Assembly: GCA_029555415.1 (NCBI GenBank)
Contig: JAKPSI010000042.1
Coordinates: 1-64,000, forward strand
DNA length: 64,000 nt
Direction: 5' to 3'
Source: Bacteroidota bacterium
Lineage (GTDB): Bacteria; Bacteroidota; Bacteroidia; Chitinophagales; Chitinophagaceae
Shown in pieces: positions 20,142 to 63,560 of this stretch. Numbering within the stretch: position 1 is the first letter of the stretch; each line of letters opens with the position of its first letter. The notes below the pieces were generated by a model. That model made no database searches and was not told where the DNA came from. It saw only the letters and a program-made list of their open reading frames with translations. The translations under genes and the position numbers were made by a program.

Positions 20142-20152
20142 AAAGGACTTAG

Positions 20153-20241
20153 GAATTTTGAATTTTGAATGTTGAGATTTGAATTTAGGACACTGTCAAA
20201 TAGAACGGAATTCAGCATTCAAAATTCAACATTTAAAATTT
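20153..20241. repeat. AT-rich hairpin element, 22-nt loop (copy 1)
   Basis: Left arm 20153-20186 (GAATTTTGAATTTTGAATG type) and right arm 20209-20241 are inverted copies matching at roughly three quarters of positions. The 22-nt loop contains ACACTGT-NNN-ATAGAACG. The element at 20601-20690 has the same loop words in the same orientation and the same AATTCAGC-TTCAAAATTCAA continuation, so the two are homologous. Confidence 0.7.
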
Positions 20242-20600: not shown

Positions 20601-20690
20601 AAATTTTGAATTTTGAGATTTGAATTTTGAATTGATGAACACTGTTGCATAGAACGTAATTCAGCTTTCAAAATTCAAAATTCAACATTT
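20601..20690. repeat. AT-rich hairpin element, 24-nt loop (copy 2)
   Basis: Arms 20601-20633 and 20658-20690 are inverted copies. The loop carries ACACTGT-NNN-ATAGAACG as in the copy at 20153-20241. The right arm reaches the TAA stop (20689-20691) of the esterase gene. Being in direct orientation on both sides of the PH-like gene, the two elements could recombine and delete it. Confidence 0.7.
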
Positions 20691-42635: not shown

Positions 42636-42690
42636 GGGGGAACTGTAATGGAAATTAGGCATTTTTGGAATAGCAGGCACAGGGTGAACT

Positions 42691-42733
42691 AATCCGAGTG
42701 ATCTGCGTTATATCTGCGTAATCTGCGAAATAC
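42691..42733. repeat. Degenerate repeat, family F (ATCTGCGTAATCTGCG type)
   Basis: Three to four imperfect units of ATCTGCG(T/A)A upstream of the sugar-dehydrogenase gene. A related copy with ATCTGTGCCAATCTGTG is at 57019-57050. Confidence 0.5.
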
Positions 42734-42759: not shown

Positions 42760-44031
42760 ATGAAATTCATAGCCTATATCGCTTTTCTACTTTCGGGAAT
42801 CAACCCGCAACCCGCAACCCGCAACCCGCAACTTTCCATCAGCAACCCCCAACCCGCAAGTATCACCCTTCCCGCCGGTTTCAAATCTTCCACCATCATC
42901 GAATCCCTCGGTACCAACCGCCACATCTGGGTCAATAACAACGGTGATATTTTCGTCAAACTGGAAAAACTGAAAGACGGTAAGGGCATCATCGTTCTGC
43001 GTGATGTGAAGAAAGATGGCGTGTATTCCGTCGTTCAGTCTTTTTGCAATTATACCGGTACAGGTATCGTCGTTAAGAATGGTTATCTGTATGCAACTTC
43101 TGATTTCGCAGTATATCGTTATAAACTCAACGCAGGCGGACTTGTTGAGAATCCTGATAAACCCGAAACGATCGTCAAAGATCTGGTCAGTCTGAACCAG
43201 CACGCTTCCAAATCCATCGCGCTGGATGACGCGGGTAATCTCTATGTCACGATCGGTGCGCCTTCCAATGCCTGCCAGGTCAAGGACCGAACAGCAGGTT
43301 CACCCGGTCAGGATCCCTGCCCCATTCTGGAAAAAGCAGGTGGTGTTTGGCAATTCAAGGCCAATGTGAAGGGGCAGTCCTATAATAATGGTGTGCGCTA
43401 TATCACCGGTATCCGCAATGTCGTGGGCGTTTTCTGGAACAAACAACAGGGGCAATTATATGGGGTACAGCATGGTCGCGATCAGCTGGCCGGCTTATTT
43501 CCGAAATTGTATACGAATGAACAAAGCGCAGAATTGCCCGCTGAAGAATTCTTCCTGATGAAGAAAGGCTCCGATTTCGGCTGGCCCTATTGTTATTACG
43601 ATCAGATGCAGAAAAAGAAAGTGCTCGGACCTGAATACGGCGGCGATGGTACAACACAGGGCCTTTGCGCAGACAAAGACCAGCCCATCATGGCCTTCCC
43701 CGGTCACTGGGCGCCGAATGATCTGCTATTCTATACCGGTGATCAGTTTCCCGCGAAATATAAGAACGGTGCCTTCATCGCTTTCCATGGTTCCTGGAAC
43801 CGCGGACCACTGCCACAACAGGGATACAATGTGGTATTCGTTCCATTCAAGAATGGTAAACCTTCCGGCCCATATGAGGTTTTTGCATCAGGCTTTACAG
43901 GTAAGGATGTGATCATGGGACCCGGACAATCTGCTTATCGTCCATGCGGACTCGCGCAAGGTCCTGATGGCTCCTTGTATGTGTCTGACGACAGAGTTGG
44001 GAAGATATGGAAGATCACATACAGCAAATGA
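42760..44031 (+). CDS. Secreted sugar/sorbosone dehydrogenase-like beta-propeller protein
   Basis: 423 residues. Short signal peptide (MKFIAYIAFLLSG), then a proline/asparagine/glutamine-rich stretch (residues about 15-34) encoded by a family B repeat. The propeller follows: GFKSSTIIESLGTNRHIWVNNNGDIF, SKSIALDDAGNLYVTIGAPSNACQ, GIRNVVGVFWNKQQGQLYGVQHGRDQL, GSDFGWPYCYYD, FIAFHGSWNR, GPDGSLYVSDD. This is the glucose/sorbosone dehydrogenase fold, usually PQQ-linked; the catalytic His in VQHGRD-type motif is recognisable. Stop abuts the stop of the convergent amidohydrolase. Confidence 0.82.
   Translation: MKFIAYIAFLLSGINPQPATRNPQLSISNPQPASITLPAGFKSSTIIESLGTNRHIWVNNNGDIFVKLEKLKDGKGIIVLRDVKKDGVYSVVQSFCNYTGTGIVVKNGYLYATSDFAVYRYKLNAGGLVENPDKPETIVKDLVSLNQHASKSIALDDAGNLYVTIGAPSNACQVKDRTAGSPGQDPCPILEKAGGVWQFKANVKGQSYNNGVRYITGIRNVVGVFWNKQQGQLYGVQHGRDQLAGLFPKLYTNEQSAELPAEEFFLMKKGSDFGWPYCYYDQMQKKKVLGPEYGGDGTTQGLCADKDQPIMAFPGHWAPNDLLFYTGDQFPAKYKNGAFIAFHGSWNRGPLPQQGYNVVFVPFKNGKPSGPYEVFASGFTGKDVIMGPGQSAYRPCGLAQGPDGSLYVSDDRVGKIWKITYSK
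42801..42860. repeat. Repeat family B inside coding sequence
   Basis: Four tandem AACCCGC units, then ACTTTCCATCAGCAACCCCC. The intergenic copy at 57164-57230 has the same tandem units followed by ACTTTCTTCAGCATCCCCC, so the match extends beyond the tandem part. Here it codes for the NPQPATRNPQ-like segment after the signal peptide. Confidence 0.75.
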
Positions 44032-46177: not shown

Positions 46178-46240
46178 TGTCATACTGCTGTACTTATTAA
46201 TTATACACAGGGCCCCGACAGATCAGTCGGGATTTTTTTT
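46166..46240 (+). terminator. trp attenuator: antiterminator and terminator hairpins
   Basis: Terminator: CCCGAC at 46214-46219 pairs with GTCGGG at 46226-46231, followed by eight T (46233-46240). Antiterminator: GGGG-TG-CTGT at 46166-46175 pairs with ACAG-GG-CCCC at 46207-46216, sequestering the terminator 5' arm. Region 1 ACAG at 46138-46141 competes for the same CTGT. The pieces form a classical 1:2, 2:3, 3:4 attenuation layout around the Trp-codon leader. Confidence 0.8.
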
Positions 46241-46259
46241 GCCCCTGCATGAACAAGAA

Positions 46260-47681
46260 ATGAAAAAAATGAAAAAGATCAATCTGCATACGACCTGTAA
46301 GAAGATGCTGGCCGACGTATACACGCCGGTGGGGATCTACCTCAGGTTGCGTGACAAGTTCCGGGATACGATCCTCCTGGAGAGTACCGACCATCATGTG
46401 GCGGAGAACAGTTATTCGTTCATCGGTATCAATGCCATCGGCGGTATCGAGATCAGTGACCTGAAACAGTATGAACTGAAATATCCGGCACGCAAGCCGG
46501 AACGCACGGCCATTGGCAAGGATACTTCCGTACCCGGGGCCTTATGGGAGTACATGCAGAATTTTGAAGTGAGCTCAACCGGTGAAAAAGAATGCGCATT
46601 TGCCCAGGGCTTGTACGGCTATACCGGATTCGATGCCGTACAGTTCTTTGAAAGCATCCGCTTCAATGAAAAGAAACCGGCCTCCGGGATCCCTTTGATG
46701 CGTTACCGATTGTATCAGTACGTCATCGCCATCAATCATTTCAAGGATGAGCTCTTCCTCCTCGAGAATGAGGTGGAAGGTTTGCCGGGTGAAGGTGCAG
46801 TGGTTGAATCGCTCATCCGCAGTAAGGATGTACCGGTGTATCCGTTCCGTGTGAAAGGGGAGGAGACTTCCAACATGGAAAATGAAGCCTATATGGAAAT
46901 GGTGAAGAAGGGGATCGCCTCCTGTCACCGCGGTGATGTATTCCAGATCGTTCTCAGCCGCCGCTTCCAGCAGGCATTCACAGGTGATGAATTCAATGTG
47001 TACCGTTCATTGCGCAGCATCAATCCTTCTCCTTATTTATTCTTCTTTGATTACGGCGATTATAAACTGATGGGCTCTTCACCCGAATCACAGTTGCTGA
47101 TCCGTAATGGAAAAGCACTGGTGCATCCGATCGCGGGTACCTATAAAAGGAGCGGGGATGATGAAGTGGACAAGCTCGCTACCGAAAAATTATTACTGGA
47201 TGCCAAGGAGAATGCCGAGCACGTGATGCTGGTGGATCTGGCACGGAACGATCTCAGCCGCCTTTGTGATGAGGTACAGGTGGAACATTACCGCGAAGTC
47301 CAGTACTTCTCGCATGTCATCCATCTGGTGAGTGAAGTGGCGGGTAAAGTGCGTCCCGGTTCGAATCCCTTCGATCTGGTCGCTCGTACCTTCCCCGCAG
47401 GCACATTGAGCGGTGCACCGAAATTCCGTGCCATGGAGATCATCGACGCGCTGGAACCCACGGCCCGTAGCTATTACGGCGGGGCTATCGGTTTCATGGG
47501 CTTTAACGGCAGTTGCAATCACGCGATCATGATCCGCACTTTCCTGAGTAAGAACAACACCCTGACCTATCAGGCCGGTGCCGGAGTAGTTGCAGCAAGT
47601 GATCCTGCCAGTGAGTTGCAGGAAGTGAATAATAAACTGAACGCGCTGACGAAAGCCATTACGATGGCGGAAAGCCTATGA
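46260..47681 (+). CDS. trpE: Anthranilate synthase component I
   Basis: 473 residues from the ATG of MKKMKKINL (a TTG seven codons earlier lies in the terminator region). Converts chorismate to anthranilate with TrpG as the glutaminase. The feedback-site motif LLES lies near the N-terminus (ILLESTDHH). Catalytic segment: PIAGTYKR, DLARNDLSRLC, GTLSGAPKFRAMEIIDALEP and YYGGAIG, all as in TrpE/PabB. The tryptophan-binding LLES favours TrpE over PabB. First enzyme of the operon, under attenuator control. Confidence 0.95.
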   Translation: MKKMKKINLHTTCKKMLADVYTPVGIYLRLRDKFRDTILLESTDHHVAENSYSFIGINAIGGIEISDLKQYELKYPARKPERTAIGKDTSVPGALWEYMQNFEVSSTGEKECAFAQGLYGYTGFDAVQFFESIRFNEKKPASGIPLMRYRLYQYVIAINHFKDELFLLENEVEGLPGEGAVVESLIRSKDVPVYPFRVKGEETSNMENEAYMEMVKKGIASCHRGDVFQIVLSRRFQQAFTGDEFNVYRSLRSINPSPYLFFFDYGDYKLMGSSPESQLLIRNGKALVHPIAGTYKRSGDDEVDKLATEKLLLDAKENAEHVMLVDLARNDLSRLCDEVQVEHYREVQYFSHVIHLVSEVAGKVRPGSNPFDLVARTFPAGTLSGAPKFRAMEIIDALEPTARSYYGGAIGFMGFNGSCNHAIMIRTFLSKNNTLTYQAGAGVVAASDPASELQEVNNKLNALTKAITMAESL

Positions 47682-47685
47682 AAAC

Positions 47686-47862
47686 GGAATTAGAAATTAA
47701 GAATTAATAATTAATAGAAGTGTCAATATGCAGGGGTCATTACTAAAGTAAAGGTAGGCGTGATGGTGATTTCTAAATAGTAGTTTACGCAATGCCAGAG
47801 ATAAGGAGTGGAACTAACATTTAGAGTCCTGTATGAATTTTTAATTTTAAATTTTGAATTCG
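47686..47862. repeat. Inverted-repeat element with 123-nt loop (copy 1, trpE-trpG gap)
   Basis: Arms 47686-47712 (GGAATTAGAAATTAAG type) and 47836-47862 are inverted copies over 27 nt with four true mismatches and wobble-compatible differences. The loop (47713-47835) is exactly 123 nt. Inside it GCGTGA at 47758-47763 can pair with TTACGC at 47785-47790 (one G-T wobble). The copy at 48555-48729 has an identical loop length and the same inner hairpin. It fills almost all of the trpE-trpG gap. Confidence 0.75.
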
Positions 47863-47867
47863 ATAAA

Positions 47868-47909
47868 ATGAAAACAACAACCCGAAACGCTTTAAAAACA
47901 TTCTTTTGA
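47868..47909 (+). CDS. 13-codon open frame overlapping the trpG start
   Basis: ATG to TGA encoding a 13-residue basic peptide (starts MKTTTRN). Its TGA overlaps the TTG start of trpG in a TTGA arrangement. It may serve only to deliver ribosomes to the poor TTG start; there is no independent evidence for expression. Confidence 0.3.
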   Translation: MKTTTRNALKTFF

Positions 47910-48499
47910 AAATACTCGTTTTCGACAACTACGACTCCTTCACTTACAACCTCGTTCACCTGGTCGAGAAGATCCTCCATCAGAAGACCGAAGTGTTCCG
48001 CAACGACCAGATACCGCTGGAGAAAGTGAAGGAATATGATAAGATCATCCTGTCGCCCGGCCCAGGCATCCCTGAAGAAGCCGGCATGCTGCTGCCGCTG
48101 ATCAAAGAATATGCGGCCACCAAATGCATACTGGGTGTATGTCTGGGCCATCAGGCCATCGGTCAGGCATTTGGAGGGACGCTGACGAATCTGAGTACGG
48201 TGTATCATGGAGTTGCAACTCCGATCAAAGTAGTCGGTAGTCATCAGTCTGTAGCCGGTAGTCAATACAACAACGATATTTTTAAAGATCTGGGGGAAAA
48301 GATCGAAGTGGGCCGTTATCATTCCTGGATCGTGGATGAAAAAGGATTCCCGGATGAGCTCGAGATCACCGCCCGCGATGAGAACGGATTCATCATGGGC
48401 CTTCGGCATAAAACTTATGATGTGCAGGGCGTGCAGTTCCATCCGGAGAGTGTGCTGACGAAGGAGGGGGAGAAGATGATGAGGAACTGGCTGTTGTGA
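47906..48499 (+). CDS. trpG: Anthranilate synthase component II (glutamine amidotransferase)
   Basis: 197 residues, starting at TTG; no ATG is in frame nearby. KILVFDNYDSFTYNLVH is the exact family N-terminus, so the TTG start is credible. Supplies ammonia from glutamine. Triad: Cys in GVCLGHQAIG, His and Glu in QFHPESVL. An insertion of about 11 residues (about 111-121, GSHQSVAGSQY) between YHGVATPIKV and IFKDLG is encoded by a family G repeat and lies in a loop away from the active site. The TGA stop begins a family A array. Confidence 0.95.
   Translation: MKILVFDNYDSFTYNLVHLVEKILHQKTEVFRNDQIPLEKVKEYDKIILSPGPGIPEEAGMLLPLIKEYAATKCILGVCLGHQAIGQAFGGTLTNLSTVYHGVATPIKVVGSHQSVAGSQYNNDIFKDLGEKIEVGRYHSWIVDEKGFPDELEITARDENGFIMGLRHKTYDVQGVQFHPESVLTKEGEKMMRNWLL
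48230..48267. repeat. Repeat family G inside trpG
   Basis: GTAGTCGGTAGTCATCAG and GTAGCCGGTAGTC units, the reverse complement of the GACTACCGACTA units at 55451-55486. Length divisible by three and no stop, so it is read through as part of TrpG. Confidence 0.7.
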
Positions 48500-48580
48500 A
48501 TGTTGAATGCTGAATGCTGAAATTTGAATTCAGGGCTCAGTGGCAAGTAATGAAGAATTAAAAATTCAAAATTCAGAATT
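48497..48580. repeat. AT-rich hairpin element, 24-nt loop (copy 3)
   Basis: Left arm 48497-48530 starts at the trpG TGA stop (TGAATGTTGAATGCTGAATG). Loop 48531-48554 is 24 nt, like the element at 20601-20690. The right arm 48555-48580 also serves as the left arm of the 123-nt-loop element. Confidence 0.6.
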
Positions 48581-48729
48581 AATACAAAAGTCATGTTGCC
48601 AGATATATCACGAGCGAAAAGCGGGGCGTAAATCTGAATAAAGGAGTTGTGTTACGCTGTCCCTAAGTAAAAGTAGAGATACTGATAGGACGACTCTTCT
48701 TTTAATTTTAAATTTTGAATTTTTAATTC
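48555..48729. repeat. Inverted-repeat element with 123-nt loop (copy 2, trpG-trpD gap)
   Basis: Arms 48555-48580 and 48704-48729 (GAATTAAAAATTCAAAATT type) pair with two mismatches over 26 nt. The loop 48581-48703 is 123 nt. GCGTAA at 48626-48631 and TTACGC at 48652-48657 form a perfect inner stem. Several short words occur at the same offsets as in copy 1 (for example GTCA at 10-13, TGC at 17-19, GGCGT at 45-49). Confidence 0.75.
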
Positions 48730-48771
48730 TAAGTCTAAGAAATAAAGTGATTAAAACAGAAGATTGAGGCT

Positions 48772-49764
48772 ATGAAAAAAATATTACAATATTTATTCGA
48801 ACACAAAACCCTCACCCGTGCCGAAGCCCGCGCTGCGCTCGTCGACATAGGCAATGGCAAATACAACGAACATGAAGTAACGGCTTTCATGACCGTTTAC
48901 CTTATGCGCAGCATCACCATAGAGGAATTGCAGGGTTTCCGCGACGCGTTGCTGGAATTATGCGTGCCGGTGCAACTTGGCGATCATGAAACGATCGATA
49001 TCGTGGGTACCGGTGGTGATGGCAAGAATACCTTCAACATTTCTACGCTCAGTTGTTTCATCGTGGCAGGGGCAGGACAAAAAGTGACCAAGCACGGGAA
49101 TTATGGAGCGTCTTCGGTCAGTGGCGCATCGAATGTGATGGAGCAACTGGGGTATAAATTCTCAGCCGACAGCACGAAGCTCAAAAAGGAACTGGATGAA
49201 GTTGGGATATGCTTCCTTCATGCACCGTTATTCCACCCTGCTCTGAAGATCGTAGGCCCTATCCGCCGTAACCTGGCCATGCGTACCTTCTTCAATATGC
49301 TGGGTCCGACGGTGAATCCCGCCAGTCCTGCCTTTCAGCTGATCGGTGTATACAATCTTGAAATGGCGCGCATCTATAATTATCTGTTGCAACAGGACGG
49401 GAAGAATTTCACCATCATCCACGGACTGGACGGTTATGATGAGATCTCGCTGACCAATGATACTAAGGTCATCACCAATGAAGGGGAGCGGATGTACACT
49501 CCGGAGCAGCTCGGTAAGCGGATGGTCGATCCGCATGATATCACCGGTGGCAACACCGTAGAAGAAGCGGCCGCCATCTTTAAGAAGATCATTTACGGGG
49601 AAGGTACCTGGGCTCAGAATGCAGTAGTACTGGCCAATGCCGCTACTGCATTGCATTGTACCGGTAAATATCCTGATTATGAAACCGCTTGGAAAGCGGC
49701 GGTGGACAGCCTCGACAGTGGCAGCGCCCGCCGTGTTCTTGAAAAATTAATCGCATTACAATGA
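48772..49764 (+). CDS. trpD: Anthranilate phosphoribosyltransferase
   Basis: 330 residues. Joins anthranilate and PRPP. DIVGTGGDGKNTFNIST is the PRPP-binding loop, KHGNYGASSVSGASNVMEQLG the anthranilate region, and IRRNLAMRTFFNMLGPTVNPA the third family signature. Overlaps trpC by 4 nt (ATGA), so the two are coupled. The ATG is preceded by an A-rich stretch rather than a Shine-Dalgarno. Confidence 0.96.
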   Translation: MKKILQYLFEHKTLTRAEARAALVDIGNGKYNEHEVTAFMTVYLMRSITIEELQGFRDALLELCVPVQLGDHETIDIVGTGGDGKNTFNISTLSCFIVAGAGQKVTKHGNYGASSVSGASNVMEQLGYKFSADSTKLKKELDEVGICFLHAPLFHPALKIVGPIRRNLAMRTFFNMLGPTVNPASPAFQLIGVYNLEMARIYNYLLQQDGKNFTIIHGLDGYDEISLTNDTKVITNEGERMYTPEQLGKRMVDPHDITGGNTVEEAAAIFKKIIYGEGTWAQNAVVLANAATALHCTGKYPDYETAWKAAVDSLDSGSARRVLEKLIALQ

Positions 49765-63003: not shown

Positions 63004-63035
63004 AATTTTGAATTTTGAATTTTGAGATTTGAATT
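63002..63035. repeat. 34-nt inverted repeat arm, left
   Basis: Begins within the TGA stop of the upstream gene (63001-63003). GAAATTTTGAATTTTGAATT and then TTGAGATTTGAATT. Its reverse complement occurs at 63527-63560 with one mismatch. Confidence 0.8.
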
Positions 63036-63044
63036 CGTGGGCAT

Positions 63045-63407
63045 CTAGTTTGCGTCAGATTCCATGTTCCTGGTGGTCGTCATGACTATCTTTGTAAGGA
63101 TATTGATCAGATCGTCTGCCTCCGGTAAGTATTCAGAAATGTCATCTTCAGTGTAATTGCTTTCATGCAAGAGCCTCAGCCAGTACTTCGTTTCACGAGA
63201 CTCTTTTGAGGCGATCGTCATTTTATAAAGAAAGTCCCTTTTTGAGGAGGCTGCCAATGCTTCTTCAACATTTGCGCCTATACTCGTGGCTGCGCGCAAT
63301 AATTGCCTTGATATCGTGAACTCTTTCTTTTGGATCAGTTTCTTATATAGACGGATGATCCTGATCGAAAACCGGAAACTCTTTTCAGCGATGATATTGT
63401 CTTTCAT
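63045..63407 (-). CDS. Four-helix bundle protein (23S rRNA intervening-sequence protein family)
   Basis: 120 residues. FRFSIRIIRLYKKL, FTISRQLLRAATSIGANVEEALAASSKRDFLYKMTIASKESRETKYWLRLL, and the last helix LINILTKIV follow the S23/IVS protein family closely. Family members are encoded within intervening sequences of 23S rRNA, and a related fold is the accessory protein Avd of diversity-generating retroelements; both bind nucleic acid. This copy is not in rRNA but lies between 34-nt inverted repeats and carries a 12-bp palindrome upstream. Confidence 0.92.
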   Translation of the reverse strand: MKDNIIAEKSFRFSIRIIRLYKKLIQKKEFTISRQLLRAATSIGANVEEALAASSKRDFLYKMTIASKESRETKYWLRLLHESNYTEDDISEYLPEADDLINILTKIVMTTTRNMESDAN

Positions 63408-63526: not shown

Positions 63527-63560
63527 AATTTAAATCTCAAAATTCAAAATTCAAAATTTC
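63527..63560. repeat. 34-nt inverted repeat arm, right
   Basis: Reverse complement of 63002-63035 with one mismatch. It contains the last codons and the TGA stop (63551-63553) of the PAP2 gene. Confidence 0.8.

Follow-up and report, generated by a model that had tools for sequence, protein, structure and literature searches.

Two inverted-repeat inserts of a bacterial trp operon, their heptanucleotide arms and a possible link to S23 genes

The trp operon and its two inserts

The stretch of DNA considered here (the window: 64,000 nucleotides, positions 1 to 64,000 of contig JAKPSI010000042.1, assembly GCA_029555415.1) comes from a member of the Chitinophagaceae (Bacteroidota), whose draft genome comprises 3.97 Mb in 139 contigs. 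It contains the co-directional trp operon trpE-trpG-trpD, and each of the two gaps between these genes (trpE-trpG and trpG-trpD) holds one insert, in which AT-rich arms in inverted orientation enclose an inner stretch. The nature of these two inserts, and their relation to the repeats that accompany genes for S23/four-helix-bundle proteins (S23 genes), is the subject of this text. The features of the locus are the following, the genes being taken from the list of open reading frames (ORFs) and trpG from homology as well, and the inner stretches being compared with a sequence model (R2) that is described below:

46239-47681, trpE
47687-47716, + strand, left arm of copy 1, a period-7 array AATTAGA AATTAAG AATTAAT AATTAAT directly past the trpE stop
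47713-47835, + strand, inner 123 nt of copy 1, of which 47713-47771 fits the 5' module (model R2, built including it)
47836-47861, + strand, right arm of copy 1, array AATTTTT AATTTTA AATTTTG AATT
47906-48499, trpG
48230-48264, + strand, period-7 array of the TAGTCNN class, in frame inside trpG
48497-48521, + strand, period-7 array TGAATGC, beginning at the trpG stop codon
48549-48580, + strand, left arm of copy 2, a period-7 array with the core AATTAAA AATTCAA AATTCAG AATT
48581-48703, + strand, inner 123 nt of copy 2, of which 48581-48639 fits the 5' module (model R2, built including it)
48700-48730, + strand, right arm of copy 2, TTTTAATTTTAAATTTTGAATTTTTAATTCT array
48772-49764, trpD

Inverted AT-rich arms with loops of exactly 123 nt in both gaps had been described in an earlier note on this DNA, and this description is confirmed: the arms of copy 1 (47687-47712 / 47836-47861) are complementary at 21/26 positions and those of copy 2 (48554-48580 / 48704-48730) at 25/27, and the inner stretches 47713-47835 and 48581-48703 measure 123 nt each. 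The short words that had been aligned between the two loops indeed stand at equal offsets in both copies (GTCA at 10, TGC at 17 and GGCGT at 45), with GCGTGA or GCGTAA at offset 46 in both and TTACGC at offset 73 in copy 1 and 72 in copy 2. Compared without gaps in the register of the earlier note, the inner stretches are identical at 59/123 positions; among 4,722 overlapping 123-mers from intergenic regions of the sampled genome the highest value is 50, and none of 5,000 shuffles attains 59 either. As this identity lies beyond all controls, the homology of the two copies, previously based on an alignment by eye, is well supported. A register 4 nt off understates the similarity of the inner stretches (local p 0.06-0.09, ungapped p 0.79). 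The right arms of the two copies also have a 22-nt exact word in common.

The trp arms are arrays of the AATTNNG class, as assigned by eye, and part of their complementarity is built in, since they combine a period of 7 with a self-complementary AATT core. The inversion of the arms is moderate in copy 1 (inverted score 15 versus direct 10) and stands at 21 versus 10 in copy 2. A weak short-loop inverted pair, missed by the earlier note, is formed by the arrays at 48497-48521 and 48549-48580 (inverted 12, direct 6). In total, the operon holds two inserts, one further weak short pair and one in-frame array in trpG; the trpG loop that contains the latter varies in length among relatives, being longer here than in most of them and shorter than in two.

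With regard to folding, a 6-bp stem with at most one G-T pair is present in 359/400 random genomic 123-mers, and the inner stem by itself therefore proves nothing; it belongs to the minimum-energy fold in copy 1 and not in copy 2. Inner parts without arms (119-nt cut) fold slightly better than their shuffles (z -1.5 and -1.8), and the inserts folded with their arms reach z -3.5 and -5.3; the folding strength of the trp inserts comes mainly from the arms. No Rfam match at the gathering score was found in the window.

The trp gaps were also read in 29 relatives with loci, out of 53 other genomes with a match. The trpE-trpG gap measures at most 100 nt in 26 of the 28 readable relatives, and the trpG-trpD gap in 22 of 27. 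The longer gaps contain a GxxExxY gene in L079 and L084 (PF13366 coordinates), a broken DUF559 gene between CCCCCTTTAGGGGG words in the trpE-trpG gap of L081 (PF04480 coordinates), two heptanucleotide (heptad) arrays of other units in L089, one heptad array in L080 and unrelated sequence in L103. Words of the CCCCCTTTAGGGGG type also occur in both trp gaps of L088 (trpG-trpD, 111 nt; trpE-trpG, 91 nt), and single heptad arrays were called in short trp gaps of L079, L086 and L090 as well. No conserved trp element is visible across the gaps of these relatives, and the variety of their contents suggests that trp spacers are a place entered by different elements.

These data bear on the proposal of the earlier note that the inserts control the expression of trpG and trpD, that is, that they are trp-specific cis-regulators (attenuator-like or riboswitch-like RNA) tuning these two genes. 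Both inserts do lie within a co-directional operon and fold well with their arms, as a regulator of this kind would. However, the elements are mostly missing from the relatives, where the trp gaps are mostly short; copies of the module described below occur elsewhere in the genome; in the family genomes that were searched, which leave out the three relatives from other families, model R2 gives no match at a trp locus; and the strength of the fold is mainly derived from the arms, with zero Rfam matches. We consider trp-specific control to be unsupported and very unlikely. The rarity of such elements in the gaps of relatives, which the earlier note had named as a finding that would tell against it, speaks against the role in the operon and leaves the homology of the two copies untouched.

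A probable dispersed repeat family

When the genome was searched with the left-end pattern AATTNATACAAGNGTCATNA, allowing at most 3 mismatches, 20 matches were obtained, compared with 7 for the reversed pattern used as a control. Twelve of the 20 matches were inspected. Over the 50 nt past the search motif, each of ten copies has a partner that is identical at 25-29 of 50 positions (about 13 expected at random); the other two, L412 and L419, do not agree (best 16 and 17 of 50). The ten copies align across 57-60 nt, nearly free of gaps, with the consensus AATACAAGAGTCATT...ACTAAAG...GCGTAA, which defines a module of about 57 nt consisting of AATACAAGNGTCAT, then ACTAAAG and then GCGTAA. The repeat begins with a heptad array, continues with this conserved module and a middle part that varies, and closes with an opposite heptad array. 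Seven copies are two-armed, their inner length being 119-123 nt in the trp pair and 156-162 nt in the five others.

The inner stem, taken by the earlier note to be preserved, holds on one side only: among the ten aligned copies CGT is invariant and GCGT is found in 9/10, while its partner TTACGC is seen in 4/10 (in the stretches printed), so that the word rather than the stem is conserved. Model R2, a sequence model of the ten copies searched with stricter filters, recovers in this genome all ten copies from which it was itself built (E <=8.7e-7); in 97 other genomes of the family it gives four weak matches, in 4 genomes (E 0.003-0.05). We regard the repeat family as real, with ragged edges, and the two trp-gap features are, as judged from sequence, copies of one lineage-specific dispersed repeat with about ten related copies in the genome.

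At the right ends, weak inverted R2 matches are present in trp copy 1 (13.9 bits) and in the copy on contig C48 (16.8 bits), and in four of the seven two-armed copies, by eye, the reversed right ends open with (C/T)ATACA, as the left ends do. A complete palindrome, made of two inverted modules per inner stretch, was considered and dropped (same-element mean 20.0/57 versus 19.0 for shuffled sequence). We also would like to mention that, by eye, several copies of the trp-type repeat (L401 and L407, which are the C73 and C133 copies, as well as L403, L404 and L415) contain 9-nt-like words in their more interior parts (AATCTGCG, CTATGTGTG...), which looks like the invasion of one repeat class by another.

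Heptad arrays and their orientation

That the arms are heptanucleotide arrays, that such arrays are abundant in the genome and that they accompany S23 genes goes beyond the earlier note. In an own-genome sample of 857 kb (the window plus runs of contigs C22, C23, C33, C36 and C128, picked after matches had been seen there), and with array thresholds set while looking at the data, 115 period-7 arrays were called; among the remaining periods between 4 and 14, none gave more than 10. The word AATTTTAAATTTTGAATT has 214 genome matches with at most 2 mismatches, versus 13 for the reversed word. A total of 158 arrays fall into unit classes, as assigned by the analyst: AATTNNG (67), ATAATGG (21), AGGTAA (19), TAGTC (16), TAGCT (12), AAGCT (9), CGGGTT (6) and others (8).

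Among neighbouring arrays less than 200 nt apart, 26 pairs are G-then-C and none C-then-G, with 10 GG, 5 CC and 2 ambiguous pairs. Two ORF-less elements of regular build lie in the window:

20144-20241, + strand, ORF-less regular element with a G-strand AATTTTG array, a 34-nt loop and an inverted array
20602-20689, + strand, ORF-less regular element like the preceding one, with a 33-nt loop

In the GC-rich Hymenobacter genome G099, opposite-strand AATTNNG pairs at most 150 nt apart run + then - in 17/17 cases (by eye); these pairs are too close for an S23 gene, and this genome has two S23 matches.

The orientation recalls telomere fusions, and a retroelement-like or DNA-break-healing system could be imagined that adds G-strand heptads to 3' ends in head-to-head fashion, with S23 guiding a polymerase as Avd does with a reverse transcriptase. 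Avd is probably akin to S23. The head-to-head orientation of the G strands (including the Hymenobacter pairs), the fixed period with its many units and the observation by eye that arrays of different classes face each other in this same orientation would all suit such a system. However, no polymerase or reverse transcriptase has been tied to the elements, none having been sought, and we give this explanation hardly any credence.

Arrays are scarce in divergent, promoter-containing gaps: with crude gene calls, 8/154 arrays lie in divergent gaps, whereas 80/337 of the gaps of at least 60 nt are divergent. This avoidance could mean that the arrays and the trp inserts are hairpins used by the host at 3' ends (REP-like mRNA stabilisers or bidirectional terminators) and kept for transcript processing, and a similar bias is given in a study on Xanthomonas GGGAATC heptads, 7-8% of which lie between divergent genes (PMC4692102). 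Avoidance of promoters is, however, equally expected of harmful insertions, and neither the S23 gene in the loop nor the clade-specific unit described below is explained by 3'-end hairpins, which are moreover lacking in the trp gaps of most relatives. We regard this explanation as unlikely.

S23 genes between heptad arms

Near the right end of the window, an S23 gene is enclosed by arms of the same class as those of the trp inserts:

63004-63032, + strand, left arm of the window's S23 element, AATTTTG
63045-63407, - strand, S23/four-helix-bundle gene of 120 codons inside the arms, a candidate partner of the AATTNNG arrays
63537-63558, + strand, right arm of the window's S23 element, CAAAATT

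The product of this gene passes the cut-offs of two families (PF05635, 87.1 bits with a cut-off of 33.8; TIGR02436, 98.6 bits with a cut-off of 24). Five S23 genes were found in the genome with PF05635, and all five lie between inverted arms (scores 16.5-32); period-7 arrays were called on both sides of 4/5, the remaining locus (L052) having none called, and one S23 gene (L051) is located between genes read as atpD and atpC.

This arrangement extends to other genomes, where the S23 loci studied are mostly the top-scoring matches per genome and not a random draw. After L113 (short flank) and L133 (no BLAST match) had been dropped from a 54-locus set of own-genome and family loci, inverted arms (score >=14) are present at 36/52 S23 loci (mispaired flanks 3%) and a period-7 array at 31/52 (shuffles 0; next best period not a multiple of 7, 6). 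Control windows 680-900 nt from S23 loci gave 0/31 at score 12, and trpG, used as a control gene, gave inverted arms at 0/29 at score 14. For a wider set, with loci from other phyla and from Bacteroidota, 274 relatives in a broad genome collection were reduced to the best 80, of which 77 were testable (L314, L319 and L323 having short flanks). In this set a period-7 array accompanies 61/77 S23 loci (0.5 expected from shuffled sequence) and inverted arms 55/77, with a null of 18% that is high because loci share the unit. Thirty further S23 loci in 19 genomes of the wider set, four of which repeat wider-set loci, show a period-7 array in 20/30 and inverted arms in 15/30 cases (null 2.5%).

The 112 arrays beside S23 genes have a median of 4.6 units, and their seven positions, ranked by conservation (1.00, 1.00, 1.00, 0.99, 0.92, 0.76 and 0.59), comprise about five fixed and two variable ones. 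In hand-picked stretches, 46 period-7 arrays were found in 400 kb of ten S23-bearing genomes versus 2 in 387 kb of twelve S23-free genomes (p 0.0014). Some S23 matches are stop-broken or truncated, as expected for a selfish gene with turnover.

The repeat unit follows the S23 clade

Repeat units were compared with S23 proteins at those loci whose array could be scored (32/52 of the own-plus-family set, 66/77 of the wider set and 17/26 of the further copies); four proteins that were duplicates (L370-L373) had been taken out beforehand. Within the clade of the window's S23, defined as proteins at least 40% identical to it, 53 of 68 scorable loci have arms of the AATTNNG type, as against 5/47 in other S23 clades, the latter being composed of 3/30 from the own-plus-family set and 2/17 from the same 19 host genomes. 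Arms of the AATTNNG type occur in ten of the eleven named phyla represented in the wider set, for example Cyanobacteriota (7/8), Chloroflexota (3/3), Planctomycetota (4/5), Bacteroidota (25/31) and Thermodesulfobacteriota (1/4), with Cloacimonadota at 0/1. Even in hosts at 60-67% GC the arms remain at 10-39% GC. On a tree of 115 S23 proteins, the unit label changes 19 times, whereas 300 shuffles give 38.6 changes on average and never fewer than 30. The similarity of units is level up to 40% protein identity and rises steadily beyond, and the observed correlation between unit and protein was reached by 9/500 matrix permutations in the family set and by 0/500 in the wider set. The repeat unit follows the S23 clade across phyla.

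Polymerase slippage as the source of bacterial heptamers is a proposal attributed to Mrazek and colleagues in two reports (PMC4679880, PMC4692102), and the arrays could accordingly be neutral slippage microsatellites, their association with S23 being hitch-hiking. Heptamers are the favoured long repeat in several bacteria and vary in unit number and sequence (PMC4679880, PMC4692102), and the GC content of the arms rises weakly with that of the host. Slippage nevertheless leaves unexplained the facing G-then-C pairs (26 versus 0), the arms that flank S23 genes on both sides, the use of one unit across phyla with GC-rich hosts included, and the coupling of unit to clade within the same genomes. 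We find it distinctly unlikely, more so than a use as 3'-end hairpins.

A proposed explanation

Taken as a whole, the data are best explained, with a probability that we put at roughly 60%, if the arms are read by the S23 protein of selfish elements and the trp inserts are kin of these elements that carry no ORF. The S23 four-helix-bundle ring would recognise the fixed letters of its own heptad in RNA or single-stranded DNA, and this recognition would span several units per arm. The solved S23 homologue 2RLD has five chains; the S23 ring is five-membered, and the arms have four to five units. An S23 gene with its two arms would constitute a small selfish element, and arrays that have no such gene, the trp inserts among them, would depend on this element without an ORF of their own. 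On the trp transcript, each insert may form a long hairpin in the spacer, which RNase III could excise by analogy with S23-carrying intervening sequences (IVSs) of 23S rRNA; if the hairpin is cut out in this way, the insert could be tolerated with no role in trp regulation.

A more general possibility, which we put forward tentatively and hold to be somewhat less probable than its opposite, is that S23 clades are readers of a heptanucleotide code, each recognising a unit of its own, in which five letters are fixed and two are free, with several units per ring, and that inverted arrays with or without an S23 gene form one world-wide class of minimal selfish elements. If this were true, it would provide an origin for the heptamer repeats of cyanobacteria, Xanthomonas, Beggiatoaceae and Bacteroidetes and a function for S23. 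Heptanucleotide arrays have been reported in scattered bacteria and their origin is not agreed upon; S23 proteins are found inside rRNA intervening sequences and are of unknown function (PMC4990558). If S23 and arrays belong together, with the unit set by the protein clade, both questions could be addressed by a simple binding experiment. The trp inserts would then illustrate the frequency with which such elements invade operon spacers, and would no longer pose a puzzle of tryptophan regulation.

Several observations weigh against the explanation preferred here. As regards the repeat family, leaving out one copy at a time from the module profile led to recovery of 3/10 copies at E <0.01, with 3 at 0.2-1.3 and 3 at 2.3-27, trp copy 1 not being recovered at all. 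Further genomic copies with a co-varying inner stem had been named as support by the earlier note: ten copies are found with R2, which was built from all of them, and the covariance model R1, made from the two trp loops alone, returned just those two loops and no third copy. When the trp loops were compared with those of nine other inverted pairs, 1/18 comparisons showed a resemblance at p <0.05; one of these nine (L390) had been cut a few bases late and is a copy of the repeat. No target-site duplication of the trp-type repeats was seen by eye, no recombinase was found and no movement observed, and no transposase was seen, none having been searched for.

The trp inserts themselves also depart from the G-then-C order: each of the five arrays in the two gaps counts as G-type by its letters, although the left arm of copy 2 has a C-type core. 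As they do not show a G-strand array 5' of the loop together with a C-strand array 3' of it, the trp copies were not filed as regular S23-associated heptad elements. The inserts may lie between two array hairpins rather than each being one element. They are atypical, being either degenerate or a separate repeat between array hairpins. There is no S23 gene in the trp loops, and BLAST shows no similarity between the 119-nt loops and S23 elements. At most, the trp inserts are related to these elements as forms without an ORF, and an origin of the inner stretch by decay of an S23 gene was rejected on the BLAST result.

Concerning the arrays in general, only 95 of the 158 sampled ones belong to unit classes matched by an S23 gene of this genome, and the GC content of the arms increases weakly with host GC overall (rho 0.35, p 0.004). 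Two genomes with S23 genes, G026 (14 genes) and G021 (1 gene), have zero period-7 arrays in 40 kb each. Most heptad arrays of Xanthomonas are flanked by the same genes in two species (PMC4692102).

Comparison with known systems

Some 23S rRNA IVSs carry no ORF. According to PMC4990558, S23 genes sit in stem-forming 23S rRNA IVSs that are removed by RNase III and are regarded as selfish and sporadic across bacteria, and the S23 protein of Xanthomonas is a homopentameric toroid (PMC4990558). As in these IVSs, the S23 elements described here place an S23/four-helix-bundle gene in the loop of a stem formed from complementary ends. Differently from them, the present elements lie in spacers of protein operons (the trp inserts in the trp operon) and not in rRNA helices, their arms are period-7 arrays with a clade-specific unit, and arrays in this genome are far more numerous than its five S23 genes. 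The comparison is meant only in the sense that both may work alike.

Heptamer repeats are reported for Beggiatoaceae, Cyanobacteria and five Bacteroidetes in one study (PMC4679880). The Xanthomonas heptads, according to a second study, are conserved at positions 1-4 and 6, mostly have four units per array, form 70 and 75 convergent inverted pairs and are few between divergent genes (PMC4692102). The arrays described here resemble those of Xanthomonas and Nostoc (GGGAATC, GGGGA(C/T)T) and the TAACTGA repeats of Beggiatoaceae in being dispersed intergenic tandem arrays of 7 nt; in contrast to them, many units occur within one genome here and these follow S23 clades. The term S23 does not occur in the main texts of PMC4679880 and PMC4692102, and no link between S23 and heptad arrays was found in the open-access literature. 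The coupling of S23 with heptad arrays, a matter larger than the trp inserts, was not found in print.

MITE and REP repeats are short, ORF-less, intergenic and hairpin-forming, with several diverged copies that are possibly moved by a protein encoded elsewhere. The trp-type repeats are likewise short, ORF-less, intergenic and hairpin-capable, with several diverged copies. Their ends, however, are tandem arrays and not simple terminal inverted repeats; no transposase or RAYT-like partner was seen, none having been searched for, and target duplication was not detected by eye.

Further observations

The GxxExxY genes (PF13366) of the family (L175-L204 and L235-L254), three of whose 50 loci were dropped (L188, L192 and L241), have inverted arms at 24/47 loci (null 3.2%). 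Period-7 arrays are found at 0/47 of these loci and period 9 at 5/47 (null 0.3), and words similar to ACGCAAAGACGCAAGG and ACCACAGAGGCACAGAG occur there. Their reading as another class of arrays, with period 9, was rejected, the arms being upheld and the period weak (5/47). Over 60 genomes, S23 and GxxExxY genes co-occur (37/45 versus 2/15, Fisher 3e-6). DUF559 matches are often contained in open frames longer than 1,000 codons, which gives the impression of in-frame insertions.

The motif TAGAACG/CGTTCTAA was considered as a general mark of array ends and dropped, being present at several arrays only. In the window, a 9-nt array TAATCTGCG is located at 42690-42731, and a heptad array AACCCGC at 42801-42859, within the 5' coding part of the ORF 42760-44031.

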